Below are positions 1,729 to 58,929 of a stretch of 64,000 nucleotides of DNA, piece by piece. Position 1 is the first letter of the stretch. Each line of letters opens with the position of its first letter. The stretch comes from Bacteroidota bacterium. GTDB taxonomy: Bacteria > Bacteroidota > Ignavibacteria > Kapaibacteriales > UBA2268. A model generated the notes under the pieces. That model did no database searches, was not told the origin of the DNA, and was given only the letters and a program-made list of their open reading frames with translations. A program made the translations under genes and the position numbers. The DNA lies in assembly GCA_004322215.1 (NCBI GenBank), contig SCSM01000002.1:62001-126000 (forward strand). The letters are read 5' to 3'.

Positions 1729-4091
1729 AGTAGGTCTATAAAAGTCACTCCGGCTCCTCCTTCTACCAATGTTCCTTCTCTAAAACTAAGATTTGAAGGA
1801 TGATTAGCAAGAAACTCATGAATTGCCTGTCTTAATGCACCTGTGCCTTTACCATGAATAATTTGTATTGTGTTGATGTTCGACATAATTGCATTCGATA
1901 TAAATTCGTCCAACTCACGCAATGCCTCTGCGGCTCTTTTACCTCGTAAATCAATTGATGAACTGATGTCAAACCTGATATGCTCTGAAATTGTCGTTGA
2001 CTTTGTTGGTTTTGGTGCTTTAACAGGTATTAGATTTTTCAAGGGAAGTTTAAATTTTACACCATTGAAATTGCAGAGTGCCGTTTGATTTTCAGTATTT
2101 ATTTCTAATATAACTCCTGTAATATTAGAATCAGAAGATATAACATTTTCCCCGACATGGAATTCGTGTTGTGTTTCTTCGATTTCATATAATTGTTCGG
2201 ATTCTCTAATCTTTTTCTCAAGAGATTTTTTTGTCTTAGCAAATTCCTGTTTAATTTCAGTTACCTGCTTCTTTTCTTCCCTAATTTCCTTAATTGTATT
2301 TTCAATAAGGGCATTTGCAGAATCAATTATTTGGTAAGCTTCCTTATGAGCATTATCAATCAGAGACTGCCTCTTTTGCTTTATATCTTTTAGCTTTTCT
2401 TCATAGTTCAATCTAAGTTTTTCAGATTGTATTTTTTCATTTTCCGCTTTAATTCTTAGCTCTTCTGCCTCTGATTTGAATCTTTGCAAAATTGTAATGC
2501 TATCTTCAAGTTCTGATTGCTTATCGCCGAGATATTTTCTTCCCCTGTTGAGAACAATTGCAGGCAATCCCAAATTTTCAGCTAACTGGAATGCATAACT
2601 ATTCCCCGGAACTCCCTGTAAAAATTTGTAAGTCGGTTTTAATTGCTTATCATCAAATTCGAGAGAATCATTTTCGATTTCAGCCCTTGTCAGGGCATAG
2701 CTTTTTAATGATGACTGGTGAGTAGTTGCGACAAAAAAAGAATTAACTTCAAGAAAACTGTCCAATATTCCGGATGCAAGTGCTGTACCTTCCTGCGGGT
2801 CAGTACCTGAACCGATTTCATCAATCAGTACAAGAGCATTTCTATCGGTAAATGATAAAATGTTTTTCAACTGAATAATCTGTGAACTGAATGTACTCAA
2901 ATCATTTTGAATTGATTGATGGTCACCGATTGCAGAAAAAATCCATCTGAAATTAGTTTTGCAATAACCCAACGTATAAATCCCACTCAAAGCCATTGCA
3001 ATATTCAAGCCGATACTTTTCAAAGCAACAGTTTTACCTCCTGCATTAGGACCTGAAATCAAATGTCCCATTCTTGTTTTGTCAAATTCTATTGTCAGTG
3101 GTATTACTTTACCAGTTCCTTTGGATTGGACAAGAATCGGATGTCTTATATTACTTAAAAATATTTCATTCTCTTCCGTAATCACAGGTTTCATCCCGCT
3201 ATATTTAATTGCATATTTGGCTCTGGCACTTATTGAATCAATATGAGCAATTATATCAATTGATAAAAGGAACTGTTTTGCCTCATCACCAATTTCTGCC
3301 GTCAGGTTTGTCAGTATCCTGTGGATTTCCCTCTTTTCTTCATTAAAAAGAAGTGAAAGTTCATTATTCATTTCAATTACTTCAGCCGGCTCTATGAATA
3401 CAGTTGAGCCGGTTTGAGACATGCCATGTATAATTCCTGTCAGATGTCTCTTGTGCTCAACTTTAACAGGCAGGACAAATCTTCCTTCTCTTAATGAGAT
3501 GAAGTCTTCCTGAAGCAGTTCTTCATCGCTGACTTTTTTTAATATAGTTTGTAATCTGTTTCTTAGCTTACTCGATTTTGAAATTATCTCTTTCCTGACT
3601 CTTGCAAGCTCCTTTGTTGCATTGTCTTTAACTTCTCCCGTTTCTGATATTGTTTCCTCGATATGTTTTTCTAAAAGCCGGTTCTCGTGGAGATTATTTG
3701 ATTCTTCATTCAATTTAGGATATTTTTCATTTCTTTGAGCAAAAAAACTTTTTATTAATCTCGATGAACGAATTGTGGATATGACATCGAGTATTTCTTC
3801 CGGCAATAGTATGGCATTTTGAACAAGTGATTTATAAAGTTTTTGTCTGATATCCTTAAATCCTTCAAATGGTATCTTTTCATCTGCCATCTGAAGATTT
3901 ATGATTTCTTCTGTTAAATCGTGTTCTTTTCTGAGCCAATATGTTTCTTTAGTTGGTTTTAGTTTCAGTATTATTTCTTGTCCGGGTTCAGAAAAGCACA
4001 ATTTAGAAATAGTATCGAGTACGACCGGAAATTCAAGTTGGTCTAATGTATCATCTATTATTTTTTGTTCTTCTTCAATATTATTATTCAT
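1725..4091 (-). CDS. mutS2: Endonuclease MutS2
   Basis: 788 aa, normal family length. MutS-family ATPase without the mismatch-recognition domain, known to act on recombination intermediates and, in some species, on collided ribosomes. The MutS core and clamp come first, with Walker A GPNAGGKT at residues 347-354 and Walker B/D-loop LIDEIGSGTDP near 422-432. A long charged coiled coil (about 515-640) follows, then a C-terminal Smr nuclease domain (about 712-788) with DLRGKRAAEAL and the HGKGTGAL loop. The yqeY-like gene lies 43 nt upstream on the same strand, so the two may be cotranscribed. The 3' end overlaps the sensor kinase stop. Confidence 0.95.
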   Translation of the reverse strand: MNNNIEEEQKIIDDTLDQLEFPVVLDTISKLCFSEPGQEIILKLKPTKETYWLRKEHDLTEEIINLQMADEKIPFEGFKDIRQKLYKSLVQNAILLPEEILDVISTIRSSRLIKSFFAQRNEKYPKLNEESNNLHENRLLEKHIEETISETGEVKDNATKELARVRKEIISKSSKLRNRLQTILKKVSDEELLQEDFISLREGRFVLPVKVEHKRHLTGIIHGMSQTGSTVFIEPAEVIEMNNELSLLFNEEKREIHRILTNLTAEIGDEAKQFLLSIDIIAHIDSISARAKYAIKYSGMKPVITEENEIFLSNIRHPILVQSKGTGKVIPLTIEFDKTRMGHLISGPNAGGKTVALKSIGLNIAMALSGIYTLGYCKTNFRWIFSAIGDHQSIQNDLSTFSSQIIQLKNILSFTDRNALVLIDEIGSGTDPQEGTALASGILDSFLEVNSFFVATTHQSSLKSYALTRAEIENDSLEFDDKQLKPTYKFLQGVPGNSYAFQLAENLGLPAIVLNRGRKYLGDKQSELEDSITILQRFKSEAEELRIKAENEKIQSEKLRLNYEEKLKDIKQKRQSLIDNAHKEAYQIIDSANALIENTIKEIREEKKQVTEIKQEFAKTKKSLEKKIRESEQLYEIEETQHEFHVGENVISSDSNITGVILEINTENQTALCNFNGVKFKLPLKNLIPVKAPKPTKSTTISEHIRFDISSSIDLRGKRAAEALRELDEFISNAIMSNINTIQIIHGKGTGALRQAIHEFLANHPSNLSFREGTLVEGGAGVTFIDLL

Positions 4092-4134
4092 AATTTTACA
4101 TAGTTATACATTTTGCATTTTACATTCTATATTT

Positions 4135-4584
4135 TTAATTTGTTAGCATTTCCTTAACAAATTGCTGAACCTTAGCACCATCCGCTTTCCCCTTAAGTTC
4201 CTTCATTACAGGTCCCATCACTTTACCAAGGTCTTTAATGTCAGATGCCCCCACTTCATCTTTGATTTTCTTAATAATGGATTTTACTTCATCATCGGAA
4301 AGTTGTTTTGGCAGAAACTCCCCGATTATTGCCAGTTCCTGTTTCTCTTTATCTGCTAAATCAGTTCTGTTTCCCTGTTCATACAATGCAATTGCATCTT
4401 TCCTCTTTTTCGCGGCAGAATTTAATATTTTCAGACCGTCCTCTTCGTTCATTTCTCTACCGGCTCCGCTTTTATTGAATTCAATAATTGAAGCACGAAT
4501 TGAGCGAAGTGTTTCCATTCTGATTTTATCACCCGATTTGATTGAGTTTTTCAACTCCTCATTGATTTTTGCTTCAAGCGTCAT
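4135..4584 (-). CDS. GatB/YqeY domain protein
   Basis: 149 aa, the full length of the stand-alone YqeY family, related to the tail domain of the tRNA-dependent amidotransferase subunit GatB. It begins with the typical MTLEAKINEELKNSIKSGD, continues with the RMETLRSIRASI helix, and ends with the small helical domain (SDDEVKSIIKKI, LGKVMGPVMKELKGKADG). The function of stand-alone YqeY proteins is not established; a role in tRNA or translation quality control is inferred from homology to GatB. It is followed on the same strand by mutS2 after 43 nt. Confidence 0.92.
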   Translation of the reverse strand: MTLEAKINEELKNSIKSGDKIRMETLRSIRASIIEFNKSGAGREMNEEDGLKILNSAAKKRKDAIALYEQGNRTDLADKEKQELAIIGEFLPKQLSDDEVKSIIKKIKDEVGASDIKDLGKVMGPVMKELKGKADGAKVQQFVKEMLTN

Positions 4585-4705
4585 AATAACTCCAAAATAA
4601 GTTTAGATTTGTTTTTTATAACGAATTATTATAATTATTCATGTTGAAATCTCTCTTTATATTTCAATTATTTAATCAGATGCAATTCTACTTTTCTATG
4701 ATATT

Positions 4706-5818
4706 TCAATTCTTATTTAATTTTATATATTCTGCTTTATATTCTTCCAATAATGAATCAATGAGCTCTTTTACACTTATGATACGGTCAATTTTATAAA
4801 CGTTCGCACCTGCAAAAGAGAATCCATCTTCATAAATTCCTTTTTTGGCATTTATCAGTGCAAGAGCTATGCAATAAGGTGCAATTTTAAATTCACAGGT
4901 TTTCAGGCATTTCCATGGGCATGTAAATGGCTTCTTGAAACCACTTGTAACATCTTCAAGAAATTGATTTTTTATCGCCCTTCCGGGCAATCCAACAGGA
5001 CTTTCTATTATAACAATGTCATCCTTTTTGGATTTCACATACGTTTCTTTAAATTTAATCGAGGCATCACACTCATGAGTTGCGACAAACCTGGTTGCCA
5101 TTTGCACTCCATTAGCTCCCAGTTTCAAAAATTTATATATATCAGCTCCTGTGTAAATGCCGCCAGCCACGATTACTGAAATATGTTTATTAAATTGCTT
5201 CTCGAATGGTTTTATTACTGTAATAACTTCTGATAGCAATTTCTCTAAAGTGAAATCAGGGTTTTCAATCTGTTCTAATTTAAAGCCAAGGTGACCCCCA
5301 GCCAAAGGTCCTTCAATAACAATGGCATCCGGAACGAAATTATGTTCATTCACCCAATGTTGAAATAAAATCTTTGTTGCTCTTGCAGATGAAACTATCG
5401 GGACTATTTTGTTCGAATATTCCTTAAATTTATTTGGAAGGAACTGTTTGAGGATTCTAAGCGGAAGTCCTGCTCCTACGAAAACTAAATCCACTCCTTC
5501 TTCCAAAGCGATTAGCGTTAGTTCATCAAAATCAGAAAGAGCTAACATTATATTTGCACCAATTATCCCATTTGTTTTTTCCCTCGCTAATCTTATTTCT
5601 TTTCTAAGAGCCCTGTGGTTCGCCTTTTTTAAATTTTTAATATAATCCGGTTCAAGCATGCCGATTCCGGCAGTGCCTATGACTCCTATCCCACCTTCGT
5701 TTGCAACTGCCGAAGCCAAGCCGGATAATGATATTCCCACACTCATCCCTCCCTGAATGATTGGGGTTTTAACCTCGATTTCACCTATCCTTAGGCTTGG
5801 TATATTGATATTACTCAT
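4706..5818 (-). CDS. Nitronate monooxygenase-like FMN oxidoreductase
   Basis: 370-aa TIM-barrel flavoprotein of the NPD/nitronate monooxygenase family. The N-terminus has IIQGGMSVGISLSGLASAVA and the glycine-rich GGIGVIGTAG; the middle has VIEGPLAGGHLG and VIVAGGIYTGADI, the usual FMN phosphate-binding region. The C-terminal part carries closely spaced cysteines (CPWKCLKTCEFKIAPYC), a feature of one subgroup that includes enoyl-ACP-reductase-like members. The substrate cannot be decided from sequence. It is transcribed alone, divergently from the YfhO-like gene across about 240 bp. Confidence 0.85.
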   Translation of the reverse strand: MSNINIPSLRIGEIEVKTPIIQGGMSVGISLSGLASAVANEGGIGVIGTAGIGMLEPDYIKNLKKANHRALRKEIRLAREKTNGIIGANIMLALSDFDELTLIALEEGVDLVFVGAGLPLRILKQFLPNKFKEYSNKIVPIVSSARATKILFQHWVNEHNFVPDAIVIEGPLAGGHLGFKLEQIENPDFTLEKLLSEVITVIKPFEKQFNKHISVIVAGGIYTGADIYKFLKLGANGVQMATRFVATHECDASIKFKETYVKSKKDDIVIIESPVGLPGRAIKNQFLEDVTSGFKKPFTCPWKCLKTCEFKIAPYCIALALINAKKGIYEDGFSFAGANVYKIDRIISVKELIDSLLEEYKAEYIKLNKN

Positions 5819-5832
5819 AAATTTTCTTCGTT

Positions 5833-5983
5833 AAATTCTTTGTTCCACAAAATTTGAAAAATATCGGTTATTCTTTTTGATTATTTTATATTATGCATCA
5901 TTCGAGATTGAATAAAAGGAATGTGCGAATAAATAAATTCATTTATAAATTAAAATCAAAACGTCAAATTTAACAAAGAATTT
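5833..5983. repeat. Widely spaced 12-bp inverted repeat in a divergent intergenic region
   Basis: AAATTCTTTGTT at 5833-5844 is exactly inverted as AACAAAGAATTT at 5972-5983, between the divergent nitronate monooxygenase-like and YfhO-like genes. It could be a pair of regulator half-sites, or chance in very AT-rich DNA. Confidence 0.35.
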
Positions 5984-6059
5984 GTTTAATTTAATAGTCA
6001 TTCTTAAATTACAGAGAAAATATTTTCATCTGATTCATATTTATTAATTTGAGTTGTTA

Positions 6060-8408
6060 ATGGGAAAAATTCCAAAAAAGAGTATAAATAAGAAACTAAC
6101 GGAACTAAAACAGAAATCAAAAATATCTATAGTTCCACCTCCCCGAATTCAATTCTGGTTGATATTATTATTCTTTATAGGTACAACTTTGCTCTTTTTC
6201 TGGGACCAGTTAACTTCAAAAGCATTTTTCTGGGAGGATATAACAGAACTATGGTATCCGTTCCAAACTTTTGCAGCAAGAGAATTTTCTAAAGGTATTC
6301 TGCCGTTCTGGAACCCATATATATTTTCAGGTATGCCGTTTCTTGCAGATATCGAAGTCGGCTTTTTCTACCCGTTCAATAGATTATTATCTTTGTTTGT
6401 TGATTCAAACGGTCATGTAGCAATTTGGTTTATTCAATTTGCAATTATTCTACATTTCCTAATTGCTCAGCTTTCAATGTACTCATTAGCGCGATATTGG
6501 AAAATCAGTCATATTGGTTCTATGATAGCATCAGTTTCTTATGGCTTTTCATTAATTCTTGTTTGTCATGTCATTCACCCTATGATTCTCTTCCATTTTG
6601 CCTGGTTCCCGTTTATTTTGATGTTGTTCATAAAAGGTATTGAGCAAAGAAAAATCAAGTATTCGGTGCTTTCGGCATGGTTCCTTGCTATTTCTATGCT
6701 TGCGGGCCATCCCCAGTCAACATTGTATGAATCTATCATGCTTGGAATAGTTCTGCTATGGTATTATGCAGCAGGAATAAAAAATAAAGAATTAAAAGGG
6801 AGAACTAATCTTAAATTTATAATTTGCGGAGTAATACCTTTTGTCGTTTCCGTTGGAATATTTTCTATTCAATTACTTCCGTCACGTGAACTTGCTTCAC
6901 TCGCCCAAAGGCAGGATATATCTTATGAAAAAGCAACCGAGGGTTCATTAGAAATGAAGCAGATTTTCACATCGGTTGTTCCGAATTTATTCGGCTCGAT
7001 AGACGGAAAAAGTTTCAAGGATAGAAATTTCACTTATCATTTGGAAGATTCGGCTTATTACAATTATTGGGAAACAGCATATTATTTCGGTATAGCGGCT
7101 CTATTGCTCGGTTTCTTTGGCTTATTGCACAAATATAAAACCAAGGAAGGAATTTTATTTATTATTGTAATTATATTCAGTTTATTTTATTCATTCGGTA
7201 AAAACTTTTTCTTATTTGAATTATTCTATAGACTTCCTCTTTTTGAATATTTCAGGATGCCTGCAAGAATGATGTTCTATTTAGTGCTTGTGTTCTCGGT
7301 GCTGGCTGGCTTTGGTTTCGACGTCCTATGGAATTCACCAAAAGACTCTAAAACATTCAGGAAAATTATTTTAATATCTGCGATTCCACTTCTTATTGCT
7401 ATATTATCTGCGACAGGTGCTTTATCAGGTATGCTGGATACACCTGAACAATTCGAGGGTGTGGTTAAAAATTCCGGGTTAGTTTCACTCGCATTAATAG
7501 TTTCAGTTTTTGTCTTATCCTCGTTGATAAATCAACAGATTCTGAAGCCCGGAGTTGGTGGTGGATTAATAATTTTAGTAGCTGTCATTGATTTATTTGT
7601 TGCCGGCTCTTCGTTCAACAGGGGACCGGACAATCCTGAAAAATCATATTTAATTAATGCAGAAACTAAGAAATTGTTTGTTGCAAAACCCCCAAAGGAT
7701 TTATTCAGAGTTTCTATACGGCTCTACCAGGAAGGTGTTATTGCAATGACACGCAACCAGGGTATGATGGATAAAATTATGACTACCGACGGTTATAATC
7801 CTCTCGTTCTGAAAAGGGGAGGGGCTCCAGCACCCCGGCTCAAAACCGTACATGAATTCAATAATGTCCGATATGCGATTCTCAAAGATTCTGCAAACGG
7901 TGGTTATAGGTTTTTCGAGTATGGTCCCTATTTCCCGCGTGCCTGGGCTGTACATAAAGCAATCGTTATGAAATCCAATGATGTATTCAATGAAATGAAA
8001 TCCATTGAACATGATTACAAAAATGAAGTCATTCTCGAAGAATCACCATCAATTTCATTATCTGGAAATAAAATAGATAGCATACCGGAAAAAGTTCAAT
8101 GTGTCAGGTATGAAAACAATGATTTTGAGTATAAGGTAAGTTTGAAAGAACCCTCGATTGTATTTTTCAGTGAAATCTGGTATCCTGCATGGAAAGCTTA
8201 CCTCGATGGAAAACCTGTTAAGATATATCGTGCGAACTATTGCTTCCGTGCAGTCGCCGTTCCTGCGGGCAATCACATAATTGTAATGAAATACGAATCC
8301 GACACTTACTTTGCCGGAATGTACATATCCGCAATAACACTGCTTTTAAGCATAGTCACATTTATCATCAGCTTAATTGCAGAAAAGAAAAAAGAGAAGG
8401 AGAGTTGA
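6060..8408 (+). CDS. YfhO-family multispanning membrane protein
   Basis: 782 aa from the ATG at 6060; a TTG two codons earlier is less likely. A short basic N-terminus is followed by about a dozen hydrophobic segments (residues about 35-500), then a mostly soluble extracytoplasmic domain and a last TM near the C-terminus. The segments WYPFQTFAAREFSKGILPFWNP near the start and SEIWYPAWKAYLDGKPV near the end are typical of YfhO/GT-C-like proteins. YfhO in Firmicutes is involved in glycosylating lipoteichoic acid; in this group the role is unknown, and a lipid-linked sugar transferase of the envelope is an inference. Confidence 0.85.
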   Translation: MGKIPKKSINKKLTELKQKSKISIVPPPRIQFWLILLFFIGTTLLFFWDQLTSKAFFWEDITELWYPFQTFAAREFSKGILPFWNPYIFSGMPFLADIEVGFFYPFNRLLSLFVDSNGHVAIWFIQFAIILHFLIAQLSMYSLARYWKISHIGSMIASVSYGFSLILVCHVIHPMILFHFAWFPFILMLFIKGIEQRKIKYSVLSAWFLAISMLAGHPQSTLYESIMLGIVLLWYYAAGIKNKELKGRTNLKFIICGVIPFVVSVGIFSIQLLPSRELASLAQRQDISYEKATEGSLEMKQIFTSVVPNLFGSIDGKSFKDRNFTYHLEDSAYYNYWETAYYFGIAALLLGFFGLLHKYKTKEGILFIIVIIFSLFYSFGKNFFLFELFYRLPLFEYFRMPARMMFYLVLVFSVLAGFGFDVLWNSPKDSKTFRKIILISAIPLLIAILSATGALSGMLDTPEQFEGVVKNSGLVSLALIVSVFVLSSLINQQILKPGVGGGLIILVAVIDLFVAGSSFNRGPDNPEKSYLINAETKKLFVAKPPKDLFRVSIRLYQEGVIAMTRNQGMMDKIMTTDGYNPLVLKRGGAPAPRLKTVHEFNNVRYAILKDSANGGYRFFEYGPYFPRAWAVHKAIVMKSNDVFNEMKSIEHDYKNEVILEESPSISLSGNKIDSIPEKVQCVRYENNDFEYKVSLKEPSIVFFSEIWYPAWKAYLDGKPVKIYRANYCFRAVAVPAGNHIIVMKYESDTYFAGMYISAITLLLSIVTFIISLIAEKKKEKES

Positions 8409-8450
8409 ATAATTAGTAACTCGTGTTACGCAACATAAGGGTATTTGTAA

Positions 8451-8618
8451 ATGAATAGAATTTTCAATTTAATAATAGAACAGGATGAAGCTGGCTTTTA
8501 TGTCGGTAGTGTTCCTGAATTGAAAGGTTGCCACACTCAGGCAAAATCCCTCGATGAACTTCATGAACGAATAAAAGAAGTTATTGAACTTTGTCTTGAA
8601 GTTGAATACTATAATTAA
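8451..8618 (+). CDS. HicB-like antitoxin-fold protein, orphan
   Basis: 55 aa starting MNRIFNLIIEQDEAGFYV, with VPELKGCHTQAKSLDELHERIKE, the signature of the HicB/UPF0150 fold (a degenerate RNase-H-like fold). It starts 42 nt after the YfhO stop. HicB normally pairs with a HicA mRNA interferase of about 60-80 aa next to it and often carries a C-terminal DNA-binding domain. No HicA-like frame is visible on either side, and the C-terminal domain is absent. It is therefore an orphan or remnant of a toxin-antitoxin pair, or a free-standing UPF0150 protein. Confidence 0.8.
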   Translation: MNRIFNLIIEQDEAGFYVGSVPELKGCHTQAKSLDELHERIKEVIELCLEVEYYN

Positions 8619-8691
8619 CTTCTTTAATTTTATTTTTTCATTGAAAATTTTTATCATTCATAAAACAATTCAAAATTCTCTTTAATAAATA

Positions 8692-9153
8692 ATGGTAATA
8701 AAATTTGATGATAAAGTAATGGAAAAAATTGAACTAATAAATTCAGTTTTTGATAAATTAGGTATTCCCAGATTATTAGAAAATCCCGACTTTGTTCTTG
8801 GAGAATTTACCCGAGATTTAATAGCATTTTTTTGTTTTAATAAAGAAAATTGTATAGGAATGAATATTGATTGTGATAATGAAGGGATTTTATTTGGCTT
8901 AGATCCAGAATATGAGGCATACTATTTATCAAATGATTTTATTAACGAAAATAAAGAATTTTGTTTAGGACTTATTGAAGATATTTTCAAATGTACTATC
9001 AAACGAGAAGTATGCGGAAAAAAATATGTAAAATTCTACTTTTATAATGAAAATGGAGAATGTGTGAGAACAAAAAAAATTACAGGATTGTTTTATTTAA
9101 AAAGAAATTGCGTTATTGAAGAATTTCCTCCAATATATTTGCAATACAAGTGA
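8692..9153 (+). CDS. Hypothetical protein, 153 aa
   Basis: Not recognised. ATG start, soluble, no signal peptide or membrane segment. It is acidic at the N-terminus (IKFDDKVMEKIELI), has several cysteines (FFCFNKENC, NIDCDNEG, FKCTIKREVCG) and a beta-rich C-terminal half (VKFYFYNENGECVRT). The coding sequence is very AT-rich and rich in AAA, ATA and TTT codons, like other accessory genes here. It sits alone between the HicB-like ORF and a repeat-bearing spacer. A small immunity-type or accessory protein is possible but unsupported. Confidence 0.65.
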   Translation: MVIKFDDKVMEKIELINSVFDKLGIPRLLENPDFVLGEFTRDLIAFFCFNKENCIGMNIDCDNEGILFGLDPEYEAYYLSNDFINENKEFCLGLIEDIFKCTIKREVCGKKYVKFYFYNENGECVRTKKITGLFYLKRNCVIEEFPPIYLQYK

Positions 9154-9176
9154 TAATAAGCAATGATTAGGAATGG

Positions 9177-9197
9177 ATTCCGTGTCAAGCACGGAAT
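9177..9197. repeat. 8-bp stem hairpin (ATTCCGTG / CACGGAAT)
   Basis: Perfect inverted repeat with a 5-nt loop TCAAG, 24 nt after the stop at 9153. It resembles a common dispersed intergenic repeat; no U-tract follows, so it is not a classical intrinsic terminator. Confidence 0.6.
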
Positions 9198-9209
9198 GAC
9201 TGTCTGAGG

Positions 9210-9246
9210 CTTTGTGTCCTTTGTGTATAACTTTGTGAGCTTTGTG
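9210..9246. repeat. Four CTTTGTG heptamers
   Basis: CTTTGTG occurs at 9210, 9219, 9231 and 9240 (spacings 9, 12, 9), within noncoding DNA between the unknown 153-aa gene and the 3' end of the EEP lipoprotein gene. Confidence 0.7.
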
Positions 9247-9282
9247 GTAAAAAATTAATATAACCACAATTCATATTTTTTT

Positions 9283-10167
9283 TTAATCGTTGTCTTTCGA
9301 TTTTACCTCAAACTGAACAAGGATAGGGCAGTGGTCCGAAACTTTTTCAATTTCTGCTTCGGACATTGAACTATAAAAATCATAGAGGCGAAGACTTCCA
9401 GCCATATATCTATTTGATGCATCATCGGTAACAATTATATGGTCAATACCATTTAGGATGGGAAATTTACAACTTTTCAAATCCTGAGTAATGAAATTAA
9501 GTTGTGGATTTTCTGCAATTGATGTTAAAGTTGGGTTTGTTATTCTATTTGGATAATCGTTGAAATCACCTAGTATTATAATATCCTTTTCTGTTTTGAG
9601 TGAAATAATAGAATCAGCCCAGTAATTTATTAACTCTGCCTGTTGATTTCTTAATTCCCTGCTATACTGTTCTAATTCGGCAGTAGAATCATAACGGGAT
9701 GTGGATTTCAGATGTACAACAAGCATGATGAAATCGAAATTTCCTTTTCTAACTTTTGCAATGAGTCCGGGTCTTGTTTTGTTGGGTTCTACAATAAGAG
9801 GAGTATATTCACTTTCTTCAGAAACTTCAATGCCTTTTTTATATATTATGCAGAGATTCTGATTTCCACCATTAGTTCCTATGTAGAATTCATAATCAGG
9901 TAAATAATTCAGTAATTTATTTATTGCATCATCATTTTCTATTTCCTGCAAACCCATTATATCAGGATTAAGATTTGAAATTATTTCAGCAATTCTTTTG
10001 TAATCCTCATCAGTTCTTTGTATCTCATCATCAATTCCATCCCCAAGCCATGAGATATTAAATGTTGCTATTGAAATAGTATCGGTATTATTTGATGCTT
10101 TTCCGGCTTGCTCGCAAGAAGAAAAGAAAATTATTGGAAGTAGAATTATGTAAAATATAAGTTTCAT
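9283..10167 (-). CDS. Endonuclease/exonuclease/phosphatase-fold lipoprotein
   Basis: 294 aa. The N-terminus is a lipoprotein signal peptide (MKLIFYIILLPIIFFSSC). The mature part has EEP-superfamily blocks in order: IATFNISWLGDG, DIMGLQEIEND (catalytic Glu), LVVHLKST, ILGDFNDYP (catalytic Asp and Asn) and VSDHCPILVQF (catalytic His). It is therefore a metal-dependent phosphodiesterase-like hydrolase anchored on the periplasmic or outer face; whether it cuts DNA, phospholipid or sugar phosphates is not visible. It starts 56 nt downstream of the proline dehydrogenase gene on the same strand, with a strong hairpin (10196-10218) between. Confidence 0.87.
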   Translation of the reverse strand: MKLIFYIILLPIIFFSSCEQAGKASNNTDTISIATFNISWLGDGIDDEIQRTDEDYKRIAEIISNLNPDIMGLQEIENDDAINKLLNYLPDYEFYIGTNGGNQNLCIIYKKGIEVSEESEYTPLIVEPNKTRPGLIAKVRKGNFDFIMLVVHLKSTSRYDSTAELEQYSRELRNQQAELINYWADSIISLKTEKDIIILGDFNDYPNRITNPTLTSIAENPQLNFITQDLKSCKFPILNGIDHIIVTDDASNRYMAGSLRLYDFYSSMSEAEIEKVSDHCPILVQFEVKSKDND

Positions 10168-10195
10168 TTCAAACTAATTATTGGTTATATGAAAT

Positions 10196-10218
10196 GCGTC
10201 AGGAGTAACTCCTGACGC
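10196..10218. repeat. 10-bp perfect hairpin with TAA loop
   Basis: GCGTCAGGAG and CTCCTGACGC flank a 3-nt loop TAA, 5 bases beyond the proline dehydrogenase stop. No U-tract follows. It is homologous to the element at 38512-38528, with compensating base-pair changes. Confidence 0.85.
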
Positions 10219-10223
10219 GGTCT

Positions 10224-11123
10224 TTAGTTCTTAAAGAAAATAGCTTTGAAAATCATTCCTGCCATTTTTGGATTTTCTTTAAGCCGTCTCGTCGAATAGC
10301 CATACCAATCTTTTCCGAATGGAACATAGACTCTCAGCCGGTGGCCTTGTGCAAGAATTTCTTTTCTTTTCTCGTCACGAACTCCAAGTAACATCTGAAA
10401 TTCATAGTCCTCTTTTTTAAGATTGACTTTTTTTAAGTACTCACGTGCATCATTAATCAACGGTTCGTCATGAGTTGCAATTCCGATATAGAGTCCATTA
10501 TCAATTATTAGCCGAAGTAATTTTTTATAATTATTCCTTACATCTTCTTTTGTCTGAAAAGCAATTTCAGGGGATTCCCTGTAGATTCCCTTGCAGAGCC
10601 GGATTGATGGTTTATATTGCATTAAATCTTTGATATCCGTTTCGCTTCTGAATAGATATGCCTGGATAACAACACCCACATTATTCAAACCCTCAGCCCT
10701 CAATTTTTTATAAAGGTTTAAAGTTTTAGTCGTATAAGGAGAGTTTTCCATATCGAGGCGGACAAAGATATTATTCTCAGCTGCTTTTTTAATAATATTT
10801 GAAATATTTTCAAAAGCAAAATCCTCATCAACGGCTAATCCCAGAGAAGTCGGCTTCACAGATAAATAAGTCTTAAGATTATTTTCCTTGATTGCATCCA
10901 ACACTTTCGAGCTTTCCTCTTTTTCATGCATTGCTCTTTCCTTAGTCGTTACAAATTCACCAAGGACATCAACCGTAGTCATTGCACCGCCGTTTGACAG
11001 TAACTCTTTTGAAACTCTCACAGCATCGCTTAATTCATCACCTGCTATATATTTTTTTGCCACCTGATGTATAATGCCTTTTGGAACAATCGGCATCATC
11101 TTAACAATAATCTGATTTAACAT
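10224..11123 (-). CDS. Proline dehydrogenase
   Basis: 299-aa monofunctional FAD-dependent proline dehydrogenase, which oxidises L-proline to pyrroline-5-carboxylate and passes electrons to the quinone pool. Family blocks in order: YLSVKPTSLGL, VRLDMENSPY, VGVVIQAYLFR, IRLCKGIYRES, GIATHDEPLI, EFQMLLGVRD, and near the end RVYVPFGKDWYGYSTRRLKENP with the substrate-binding Arg pair. The length fits the short form without the P5C dehydrogenase domain; that partner gene is not in the window. It is followed by the EEP lipoprotein gene on the same strand. Confidence 0.95.
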   Translation of the reverse strand: MLNQIIVKMMPIVPKGIIHQVAKKYIAGDELSDAVRVSKELLSNGGAMTTVDVLGEFVTTKERAMHEKEESSKVLDAIKENNLKTYLSVKPTSLGLAVDEDFAFENISNIIKKAAENNIFVRLDMENSPYTTKTLNLYKKLRAEGLNNVGVVIQAYLFRSETDIKDLMQYKPSIRLCKGIYRESPEIAFQTKEDVRNNYKKLLRLIIDNGLYIGIATHDEPLINDAREYLKKVNLKKEDYEFQMLLGVRDEKRKEILAQGHRLRVYVPFGKDWYGYSTRRLKENPKMAGMIFKAIFFKN

Positions 11124-55505: not shown

Positions 55506-55616
55506 TTGAAAATGGATTATGTCAATCCTGCGAAAGTAGTAATCCAAATTATTCTTCCTTCTATGTGTGGGATTAAGGGGTGTGTAAATTCAATTATGAA
55601 TTACGAATAGGGAATA

Positions 55617-55780
55617 TTTGTCACATTTTGTCATAGTTTGTCTCACTTTTTTTTATTTTTCATTACTCTTTAGAAATAAAATTGATTTGTAAGGAGTTAT
55701 AATATTACGAACATGGAATATTTGTCCTGTTTTGTCCGTTTTTGTCTCATCTTGTCCTATTGATGTCCTATTTGGAATGG
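55617..55780. repeat. TTTGTC-type repeats in two blocks
   Basis: GAATATTTGTC begins each of two blocks, at 55613 and near 55716. The first continues TTTTGTCATAGTTTGTCTCA; the second has TTTTGTCCG, TTTTTGTCTCAT, CTTGTCCTATTG and ATGTCCTATTT. The units recur about every 9-12 bases. Confidence 0.65.
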
Positions 55781-55831
55781 CATTTTGAGACAATAAGTGA
55801 CTAAAGTCGAGAGGTTCATGTAATCCAATCT

Positions 55832-55851
55832 CCACTATTTAAAAATAGTGG
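55832..55851. repeat. 9-bp hairpin (CCACTATTT / AAATAGTGG)
   Basis: Near-perfect inverted repeat with a 2-nt spacer in the noncoding stretch after rmuC. Function unknown; no U-tract. Confidence 0.6.
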
Positions 55852-56160
55852 CTATTCAACCCAGAATATCAAAGAACGAGCAGAGCAAAGATAGTTCATC
55901 AATTTGATATAAAAAGAAAACGGTTTTAAAATGGTTTTAAAAATAATTAATAATTTATTAATGAAGAAGAATGTAGGGTTGGAACCGATAACAATTATAT
56001 TTAGTATTAATTCATGATTTTTAATCCCGCATGGTAAGCCACAAAGATCGACCCGATTGATGCGTTGAGGTATGAATAGAATCAATTACGAATTTCAAAT
56101 TACGAATTACGAATATCGGTTAAATTTTTTTTATTTTATATTTTTAATTAAATTAGTTTT

Positions 56161-56451
56161 ATGAATATTAAAGAACAGATATCGGACATAATTAAAGCTA
56201 ATAAGAATTATCTGAAAGATAAATACCATCTCAAAGATATTGGCTTATTCGGTTCAATATGCAGAGATGATTTTAAGGATTCAAGTGATGTTGATATATT
56301 AGTTGATTTCAATCAACCTGTCGGTGTAGAATTTATAGACCTTGCCGATGAACTCGAGTCACTACTAAACCGGAAAGTTGATTTAGTATCCAAAAATGGA
56401 ATAAAACCAAAATATTTCTCCGAAATTGAAAGAGATTTAGTCTATGTCTGA
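56161..56451 (+). CDS. MNT-type minimal nucleotidyltransferase
   Basis: 96 aa. Nucleotidyltransferase core GLFGSICRDDFKDSSDVDILVDF (GSxxR..D, SDxDxLV) with the third acidic position in the KVDLVSKNG strand. MNT proteins usually act as antitoxin by AMPylating the HepT/HEPN RNase encoded next to them, with overlapping ends. Here the next frame overlaps by 8 nt but is broken (see pseudogene), so the protein may be an orphan. The upstream DNA is the repeat-rich noncoding stretch. Confidence 0.9.
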   Translation: MNIKEQISDIIKANKNYLKDKYHLKDIGLFGSICRDDFKDSSDVDILVDFNQPVGVEFIDLADELESLLNRKVDLVSKNGIKPKYFSEIERDLVYV

Positions 56452-56518
56452 AAGATAAGCTAAAATTTTTATCTGAATTCATGATTTATTATCAAATATA
56501 TATTTTTTAATTTGTTCA
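56444..56518 (+). pseudogene. Remnant of a HepT-like partner of the MNT gene
   Basis: An ATG at 56444 overlaps the MNT stop by 8 nt, the usual MNT-HepT arrangement, and encodes MSER before a TAA. Reading on after a one-base shift gives KLKFLSEFMIYYQ before further stops; MSERDKLKFL resembles HepT N-termini. No longer HEPN frame (RxxxxH) follows. The inference rests on a short match. Confidence 0.5.
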
Positions 56519-56572
56519 ATGTTTATAATTAAATTAAAATCATAATTAATTTTTTAAATTCTTACTATTTTT

Positions 56573-57055
56573 ATGTGTGATAATACATCTTTAAATTGGA
56601 CTGAGATAATAATTAGTGGATTATTTGGTGTATTTCTTGGTATAATAGCAAGCTATTTAACAACTTATATAAATGAAAAAATTAAGAGAAAAAGAATTGA
56701 AAAGAGTTATTCTAAAATTCAAGGGGATGATTACATCTGTCCAACATCAGAATACCCCGTAAATGTTGCTGATGCTTCAATTAATTTAATTGCAAAAAAT
56801 AAACTCAAAATTATTGTAAAGACTTATGTTGATATTGGTTCCAATACAATATTAGATGATAAACATATCTGGGAAGGTGAGATATATATGCAAACTCAAA
56901 AATTCGGTACTCTAATATGGTATTATACTTACCCACAAAGTAAAGTTGGTGAAAATGGATTTAAAAGAATAATAATTCACGAGCATTTCAAAGGATTTAC
57001 ATTAATCGGAGAAATGGATAAGGGATTTGGTGATCAGAAATTTATTAGGAAATAA
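56573..57055 (+). CDS. Hypothetical single-TM protein with beta-rich C-terminus
   Basis: 160 aa. One N-terminal TM (IIISGLFGVFLGIIASYLTTYI), a basic stop-transfer segment (EKIKRKRIEK) and a beta-rich soluble domain (DDYICPTSEYPVNV, IIVKTYVDIGSN, WEGEIYMQTQKFGTLIWYYTYP, KGFTLIGEMDKGFG) on the cytoplasmic side. Not recognised. The TM-plus-beta-domain architecture recalls small membrane effectors in some defence systems, which is only analogy. It precedes the 574-aa gene by 74 nt in an accessory island. Confidence 0.7.
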   Translation: MCDNTSLNWTEIIISGLFGVFLGIIASYLTTYINEKIKRKRIEKSYSKIQGDDYICPTSEYPVNVADASINLIAKNKLKIIVKTYVDIGSNTILDDKHIWEGEIYMQTQKFGTLIWYYTYPQSKVGENGFKRIIIHEHFKGFTLIGEMDKGFGDQKFIRK

Positions 57056-57129
57056 TTAAGAATTAAAAACAAATTTATTAAACAGCTAGAATTTAATTTA
57101 AAATTCTTTTAACATTTCGACTTATAAAA

Positions 57130-58854
57130 ATGGGTTATAAAATTGGAGATTTAAACATTTATTTAATATTAGGTTATTCTGAGTTTTTCAATGACTTTGA
57201 TTCTGTGAATTTAAATGAGTTTTTAAATAATATACCATCAAAATTAATTTTAGAAATTATTGCTCACACTGATGCGCAATACCATTTAAGTGAAACCAAA
57301 CAAAATAAACAGTTTGAAATATTAAACGCATGGACGAGTAGATTTCCCTATTATATAATAGAAAAAATTAATGAAAAATTACATTTCTTTAATAAAACAA
57401 ATATTATATTCTTTAATAATATTACATCATTGAAACTTACCCAACATGTCCTAAAATATTTTAATGATTCTGAAAGAACTGAGTTAACAAAAGAAGAAGA
57501 ATTAAATTTATTTAAAGCTTATCTTTATATTTCTGAAGAATGGGTTTCAAAATATAATAAAATCAAATTACCAAATTTAGTTACAGAAGAAAACTTTATT
57601 CAAGTTATGCTTCCAATGCGTATCGTTTATCATGATTTATTTTGGCATAGTGACTTAATTATTCAATTTATCAAATCTGATTATTTTTTTTCATTTTGTG
57701 AAATTGATAAAAATTTTAAAGTATATTTAGAAGTATTTCTTAAGGAAATGAAAATAAGTAGTTGGAAAGATTATTTGAAACATATAATTCAAATTTATGT
57801 AAAGAATATTCAAAACATATCAAGACCAACTGCAGTTATTATTGAAACTAAGGATGAAAAAATATTCGATTTTTTTAATAGTTTATGTCTAAATAATCTT
57901 GATTTTGAGATTGATGAAGACTTTATTCCATTAAGGAATTATCCGATTATCAAATTAGATGAAAAAAAATATCTTATAATAAATTATAATTTATTTATTG
58001 ATAAGATTTATAATAATTTAAAGTATTTTTTCGCAGATTTGATATTAAAAAACGAATGTAATTTTAATGATAGAAGAATAAAAAACAGAATTGATTTTTT
58101 ATCTCTTTATTCAAAAAATTTTTCAGAAAATAAATTATTTTTTCCTGTTTTCAATTATTTATTTTTTAGGGTTAATACAAAAGTAAAATTAAATGGAAAT
58201 GAATTACTTGATTTACTAGGTCAAGGTGTACCTGACTATTATATGCAAATTTTTAATGATGTTTATATTTTTGAGTTTAAAGATATTTCTTTAAGTTTCA
58301 AAACAAAACTATCATATGATTTTGAAGTTATAAAAGATGAGTTAATAAATAAATTTGTTCATGATAAAGAGGGTAACGCAACTGGTATTATGCAAATCAT
58401 TAATTATTTAAATAGAATAGTCGAAGGTGAATTTGATAAAATAAATAATTCCAGTTTTAAAAATTTAAAATTTTTTCCGATCATAGTAGTAACAGATTAT
58501 TCCTTTAATTTTACTGGTATCAATTATTTTCTTAACAATTTATTTAGAGAAGAGTTAAAGAAACATAATATAGAAAAAAACCTAGTTGTAAATGACCTAA
58601 TAATAATAAATTTAAATACCTTATTAAAATATCAGGATATGATTAATGGTAAATCATCATTATTATTGAAATCATTTAAAGAATATATTTATTTTATTCA
58701 AGATTCTAAAGATTTTATGAAAAAAGTGATTACGTTTGATGATTTTTTCATTGAAAAATTTAATAAAACTCATTCTAAAATGCCGAGAAAATTTATTGAA
58801 ATAGCTAAAAAATATTTCCCCAAAACAGAAAAACAAATATTAATAAACAAATAA
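57130..58854 (+). CDS. Hypothetical protein with PD-(D/E)XK-like motif
   Basis: 574 aa, not recognised as a whole. Residues 1-330 are mostly helical and very AT-rich in coding. A likely restriction-endonuclease-like core follows: P368-D369 (GVPDYYMQIF), then E382-F-K384 (VYIFEFKD), with Q422 in the next helix (TGIMQIINYL), the usual order of PD, ExK and Q. A further strand IIVVTDYSFNF and a helical tail follow. No TM or signal. It resembles cytoplasmic nucleases of defence or repair. The coding sequence is unusually AT-rich even for this genome, suggesting recent transfer. Confidence 0.75.
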   Translation: MGYKIGDLNIYLILGYSEFFNDFDSVNLNEFLNNIPSKLILEIIAHTDAQYHLSETKQNKQFEILNAWTSRFPYYIIEKINEKLHFFNKTNIIFFNNITSLKLTQHVLKYFNDSERTELTKEEELNLFKAYLYISEEWVSKYNKIKLPNLVTEENFIQVMLPMRIVYHDLFWHSDLIIQFIKSDYFFSFCEIDKNFKVYLEVFLKEMKISSWKDYLKHIIQIYVKNIQNISRPTAVIIETKDEKIFDFFNSLCLNNLDFEIDEDFIPLRNYPIIKLDEKKYLIINYNLFIDKIYNNLKYFFADLILKNECNFNDRRIKNRIDFLSLYSKNFSENKLFFPVFNYLFFRVNTKVKLNGNELLDLLGQGVPDYYMQIFNDVYIFEFKDISLSFKTKLSYDFEVIKDELINKFVHDKEGNATGIMQIINYLNRIVEGEFDKINNSSFKNLKFFPIIVVTDYSFNFTGINYFLNNLFREELKKHNIEKNLVVNDLIIINLNTLLKYQDMINGKSSLLLKSFKEYIYFIQDSKDFMKKVITFDDFFIEKFNKTHSKMPRKFIEIAKKYFPKTEKQILINK

Positions 58855-58929
58855 TATTTTTTTCACATATAAATTTCCCATTTCTCCTGATATTTGTAAC
58901 AATTATTTTTTAACATTTAATTTTATTTA

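Follow-up and report, generated by a model that had tools for sequence, protein, structure and literature searches.

Shedu is encoded by a stand-alone gene in which a variable N-terminal part precedes a C-terminal PD-(D/E)XK nuclease (PMC12904381). In one member, EcSduA, the N-terminal clamp binds DNA ends and the bound DNA is nicked, as summarized in the same review (PMC12904381). Upx occurs in defence hotspots (PMC12629846, PMC12824646). For Nt.BspD6I, the D456A and E418A variants were found to be catalytically deficient (PMC6261011).

The gene described here was found in a stretch of Bacteroidota DNA of 64,000 nucleotides, referred to as the window, and encodes a protein of 574 aa that is almost certainly a PD-(D/E)XK nuclease for which cleavage of DNA is predicted. 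Taken as a whole, it is likely to represent a PD-(D/E)XK nuclease that acts in defence as a single gene, without a methylase, and would be regulated through its helical N-terminal part. The best reading is that it works like Shedu or Upx, and its sequence places it in neither. The features annotated at the locus are provided in the table.

Table. Features of the nuclease gene and its insertion spot (positions in the window)
Feature	Position	Strand	Basis
Segment that varies between conserved flanks and has other cargo in genomes of the same genus	55514..58871	.	blastn against G001 and G003
ABC-permease C-terminus relic, left border of the insertion spot	56026..56079	+	reads PAW*ATKIDPIDALRYE*
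Orphan MntA-like nucleotidyltransferase, toxin-antitoxin debris	56161..56451	+	Pfam NTP_transf_2, 4.9e-12
ORF of 160 aa, hydrophobic N-terminus, 27.7% GC	56573..57055	+	no convincing family match
Whole nuclease gene, 574 aa, stop codon included	57130..58854	+	intact ORF, alignments A1 and A3, AlphaFold2 model
N-terminal region, residues 1-329, putative sensor/regulator	57130..58116	+	model secondary structure, conservation
PD-(D/E)XK nuclease domain core, residues 330-500	58117..58629	+	model topology, fold matches, most conserved region
E333, invariant acidic residue, first core helix	58126..58128	+	A1, A3, model
P368-D369, PD of the motif	58231..58236	+	A1 conservation
E382-F383-K384, ExK of the motif	58273..58281	+	A1 and A3 conservation
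Q422, invariant glutamine, next helix	58393..58395	+	A1, A3, model

The preliminary description of this DNA had reported a 574-aa frame with P368-D369, E382-F383-K384 and Q422 in unusually AT-rich coding DNA. All these residues were found where it had placed them, the frame is intact, and the gene, at 20.6% GC where the median is 34.7%, is the most AT-rich among the 48 ORFs of at least 100 aa in the window. The protein had also been called unrecognised, and no convincing match to it was found in Pfam, NCBIfam, PADLOC, PHROGs or the PDB sequences. Neither PADLOC nor the DUF4263 profile (at E <=1) matched the protein or any of 12 relatives. These 13 members thereby differ from Shedu, and the Shedu/DUF4263 profile search that had been suggested gives no placement there. 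A single weak match (2.7e-4) was observed between one relative and L_protein_N of Pfam, a viral L protein family that includes a PD-(D/E)XK endonuclease.

Conservation was followed in two alignments that differ in how their members were collected. Alignment A1 contains the members from a whole-protein search, taken without motif selection, and has ten invariant columns (D264, P272, E333, P368, D369, Y371, E382, K384, Q422 and P450). Five residues had been named in the preliminary description as following the order of a restriction-endonuclease-like fold, and all five are among these ten out of 574 columns, for which the probability by chance is 5e-10. Alignment A3 consists of 66 sequences from loci gathered by a pattern that includes PDYY; P368, D369, Y370 and Y371 are biased in A3 because of this pattern, while E333, E382, K384 and Q422 are unbiased. 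The motif residues stay invariant in A3, with a spacing of 13 between D369 and E382 in 66 of 66 sequences. The spacing between E333 and D369 is 31-39 across the family, a range that includes the 38 positions between E418 and D456 of Nt.BspD6I. Both alignments thus contain PD...(D/E)xK and, in the helix ahead of it, an acidic residue, the combination by which the superfamily is recognized. Ahead of the core, residues 264-283 (57919-57978), a segment with the invariant D264 and P272 and a predicted short beta hairpin, are conserved to a degree equal to the active site.

The structure of the protein was predicted by AlphaFold2 with A3 as the alignment (66 sequences; pLDDT 85.9, pTM 0.89). A single-sequence model with a pLDDT of 33 was discarded. 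Over residues 320-494 a helix containing E333 is followed by three strands, of which the second starts with PD and the third ends with ExK, then by two helices, the second of which contains Q422, and finally by a strand, a helix and a strand. In the model, this order is the PD-(D/E)XK arrangement, with the alpha-beta-beta-beta-alpha-beta core present. Judging by this topology and by their invariance, E333, D369, E382, K384 and Q422 would cluster in space. Structure prediction and fold search, both proposed in the preliminary description, thus found the alpha/beta core on which its assignment depended, and the PD-(D/E)XK core is borne out by residue invariance, a confident model and fold matches alike. 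The other structural claim, that the first 330 or so residues are a separate helical region, stands with one refinement. The region is separate and mostly helical, with mainly helices to about residue 235, but these are followed by a conserved alpha/beta segment (residues 236-283) with the invariant D264 and P272.

The two fold comparisons gave different leading matches. Upx (PDB 9wuf) is the best Foldseek match (E 1.2e-3, prob 1.00), and the highest VIA-align Z was found for N.BspD6I (10.2; 3.7 A over 172 residues), followed by R.BspD6I2 (8.3), FokI (7.7) and Upx (6.9). Lower matches to Cdn1, Can2, McrC and Shedu have Z of about 4.6-6.8, and no match at E <=0.001 was found in the viral fold library. 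The alignment with Upx covers 380 residues, pairing positions 14-516 of the model with 733-1272 of Upx, and thus extends over parts of the N-terminal region as well as the nuclease, although at an rmsd of 9.5 A and with an Upx chain of 1212 residues compared with 574 here. The A3 profile had no match among the PDB sequences, and PADLOC gave none to the family proteins either, sets that may themselves lack the Upx chain or model. With Shedu the likeness is in the stand-alone gene layout, an N-terminal part joined to a C-terminal PD-(D/E)XK nuclease, whereas the fold scores (SduA, Z 5.2; the Bacillus cereus Shedu nuclease, Z 4.6) are no better than those of many other PD-(D/E)XK enzymes. Can2 and Cdn1, the CARF-gated CRISPR ancillary nucleases, fall within the common range (Z about 5.7-6.8) and share the logic of a gated nuclease, but no CARF profile match was found in the protein or its 12 relatives. 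The alignments with N.BspD6I and FokI cover the cleavage domain only, at 7-13% identity, and these enzymes differ from the present family, whose gene is not accompanied by a methylase or a paired subunit when it moves.

Relatives were found by whole-protein search in 13 other genomes of the 395 Bacteroidota genomes sampled, where they occur in a scattered manner; the family proteins are mostly 570-600 aa long and most relatives are 23-30% identical. A profile search found the family in 16 of 395 genomes of the phylum and 4 of 391 genomes of the same class, the genome of the window being included in both counts. Confinement of the family to Bacteroidota is suggested by a pattern-plus-tblastn contig scan of 84,980 species, built from a further alignment (A2), in which each of the 67 loci recovered is titled Bacteroidota. 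Scans of genome contigs and viral contigs with the single protein as the query returned no relatives. A role in housekeeping or DNA repair would agree with the strong purifying selection described below, yet such a role is very improbable for a gene that is so patchy in the phylum and the class, is absent from the same-genus genomes and has moved between families.

This movement was observed at the DNA level among Chitinophagaceae, Sphingobacteriaceae, Reichenbachiellaceae, Marivirgaceae and Cyclobacteriaceae. Between relatives of different families, the DNA of 74-86% identity reaches from a point no more than about 140 bp away from the start codon to one no more than about 170 bp away from the stop codon. 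Since the shared DNA stops near the ends of the ORF, the transferred unit is a single gene, with Aequorivita as the exception. Identical proteins were found in Aquimarina, Zeaxanthinibacter and Maribacter, and the pairwise Ka/Ks of 0.05-0.17 shows that the protein function was maintained during movement. These observations bear on the possibility that the protein is a restriction endonuclease with sequence specificity, of type IIS or like a nickase, in which the N-terminal region reads a site and the methylase lies elsewhere or the site is absent. The ranking of N.BspD6I, R.BspD6I2 and FokI at the top by Z fits such an enzyme, as do the few relatives that adjoin type I or type IIL restriction-modification genes. 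We nevertheless consider it unlikely, as the shared DNA ends at the ORF, no methylase was found among the ORFs adjoining the nuclease gene in the window, and identical genes in several genera would require a methylase in each host. A type II restriction-modification pair is likewise not what is observed, because the gene moves without a methylase.

In the window, the nuclease gene occupies a spot where the DNA has only short matches within its own genus (blastn against the G001 and G003 regions). The ABC-permease C-terminus that remains as a relic at one border is intact in the same-genus loci L112 and L114, the other border is an ATG22-type transporter (58930), and both borders recur in G003 and G001. 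Between them, a type IIG restriction-modification enzyme (PADLOC 2e-201) is encoded in G003, and a weak YafQ-like/HTH toxin-antitoxin-like pair, among other genes, in G001. As the contents of all three differ, one spot holds three accessory cargoes in three related genomes. The view that the gene belongs to an accessory island with a likely defence role is therefore supported by this comparison as well as by conservation, the model and the fold matches, and the toxin-antitoxin debris said to lie alongside was identified as the orphan MntA-like nucleotidyltransferase. The latter has further matches to NCBIfam MntA (1.9e-11, under its cutoff) and PADLOC PDC-S09 (1.6e-26), with no HEPN gene adjoining it among the window ORFs. 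Nothing to account for the insertion came up in scans for Rfam families and tRNAs.

Decay of the window copy into an inactive remnant of such a nuclease was also considered. The window protein forms a long branch (1.98) in the family tree, where its placement is unsure, and the extreme AT content, the debris alongside and a stop codon within the matched stretch of one same-class relative could be read in the same direction. Set against an intact frame, the retention of all invariant residues and a model that is confident over nearly the full length, this reading has hardly any probability. The 160-aa ORF upstream was ruled out as a conserved partner, as a search of 197 other Bacteroidota genomes returned no relatives of it. 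The spot between the ABC permease and the ATG22-type transporter is itself a candidate defence hotspot of the genus.

The neighbours of the relatives include type I restriction-modification, DRT8, Tmn (with a gap of 11 bp), Fic, MmeI, Piwi, AbiE-type and mobilisation genes, and certain other relatives adjoin metal-resistance or ordinary genes; this survey is a listing without a matched control and gives no enrichment figure. In locus L133 (genome G404, 3296-11100), a relative lies between a PrrC-like AAA ATPase gene and hsdM- and hsdS-like genes of type I restriction-modification, all on one strand. Eight Hymenobacter plasmids were found by tblastn to carry the family, a further viral-contig scan returned one relative on a contig with conjugation genes and tyrosine integrases (a conjugative transposon), and tblastn of phage records found no relatives. 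The repeated occurrence on plasmids and on conjugative or mobilisable elements would agree with a nuclease that serves its mobile element, for example by keeping out or destroying plasmids or elements that compete with it, phage defence being secondary. Such service appears quite improbable, as the window copy and several relatives are in chromosomal islands with no transfer genes nearby, and defence genes also commonly ride on such elements. Its spread as a single gene, together with its position at a site of anti-virus gene exchange, argues that the protein is probably one more phage-defence nuclease, and a role in defence is accordingly the one we favour as likely.

For this defence nuclease, residues of about 290-545 (core 330-500) would form a metal-dependent endonuclease domain of the type found as the cleavage domain in FokI and N.BspD6I. 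The putative catalytic set is E333, D369, E382 and K384, and Q422 would be a supporting residue. The N-terminal region may restrain the nuclease and release it once some characteristic of infection or of invading DNA is encountered, whereupon the C-terminal domain would cut, DNA being the predicted substrate. No methylase or obligatory helper would be needed, and with methylase-free action the discrimination between self and non-self must come from the N-terminal sensing step. The specific mechanism of gating, with autoinhibition by the N-terminal region, has about an even chance of being correct. By analogy, the proposed logic of sensing and then cutting resembles that of EcSduA.

The family is a mobile, intact and strongly conserved one that is present in about 3-4% of the sampled genomes of Bacteroidota, to which major bacteria of the gut and the environment belong. 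Its nuclease is recognizable by shape and not by sequence, and as no model for it exists in the four libraries searched (Pfam, NCBIfam, PADLOC and PHROGs), defence-annotation pipelines built on these would miss the family. If phage protection is its true function, the family extends the immune nucleases by a stand-alone, methylase-free member whose sensor domain is unexplained, and provides a small structural counterpart to Upx.

No partner gene common to the family was found among the neighbours of the relatives, where only clade-specific followers occur. In Aequorivita (L048-L053; L048:11769-12566), a 265-aa gene lies 10 bp downstream of the nuclease gene and inside the same block of DNA homology, and the nuclease is therefore not always alone. 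The product of this gene starts with FIDILGF and has no Pfam or PADLOC match. The Flavobacterium copies have a conserved follower of about 340 aa (L100:11652-12680, L101:11652-12680, and also in L022 and L023) whose gene end overlaps that of the nuclease; the follower is 61% identical between L022 and L023 and has nothing above the cutoff of Pfam. A bolder and rather doubtful proposal is that the proteins make up a new Bacteroidota-wide family of single-gene immune nucleases, that the helical N-terminus is a new type of sensor of infection or invading DNA and that, in a variant found in Aequorivita, the adjacent co-travelling protein modulates the nuclease.

A relative of the Aequorivita follower adjoins the nuclease of L055 in reverse orientation, and the follower is very weakly similar (E 0.016) to L112:13611-14456, which lies beside the type IIG restriction-modification enzyme in G003. 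On the conjugative transposon, a DUF2441 gene (1.6e-8; L016:8384-8959) is located 13 bp ahead of the nuclease gene and was not observed beside other relatives.
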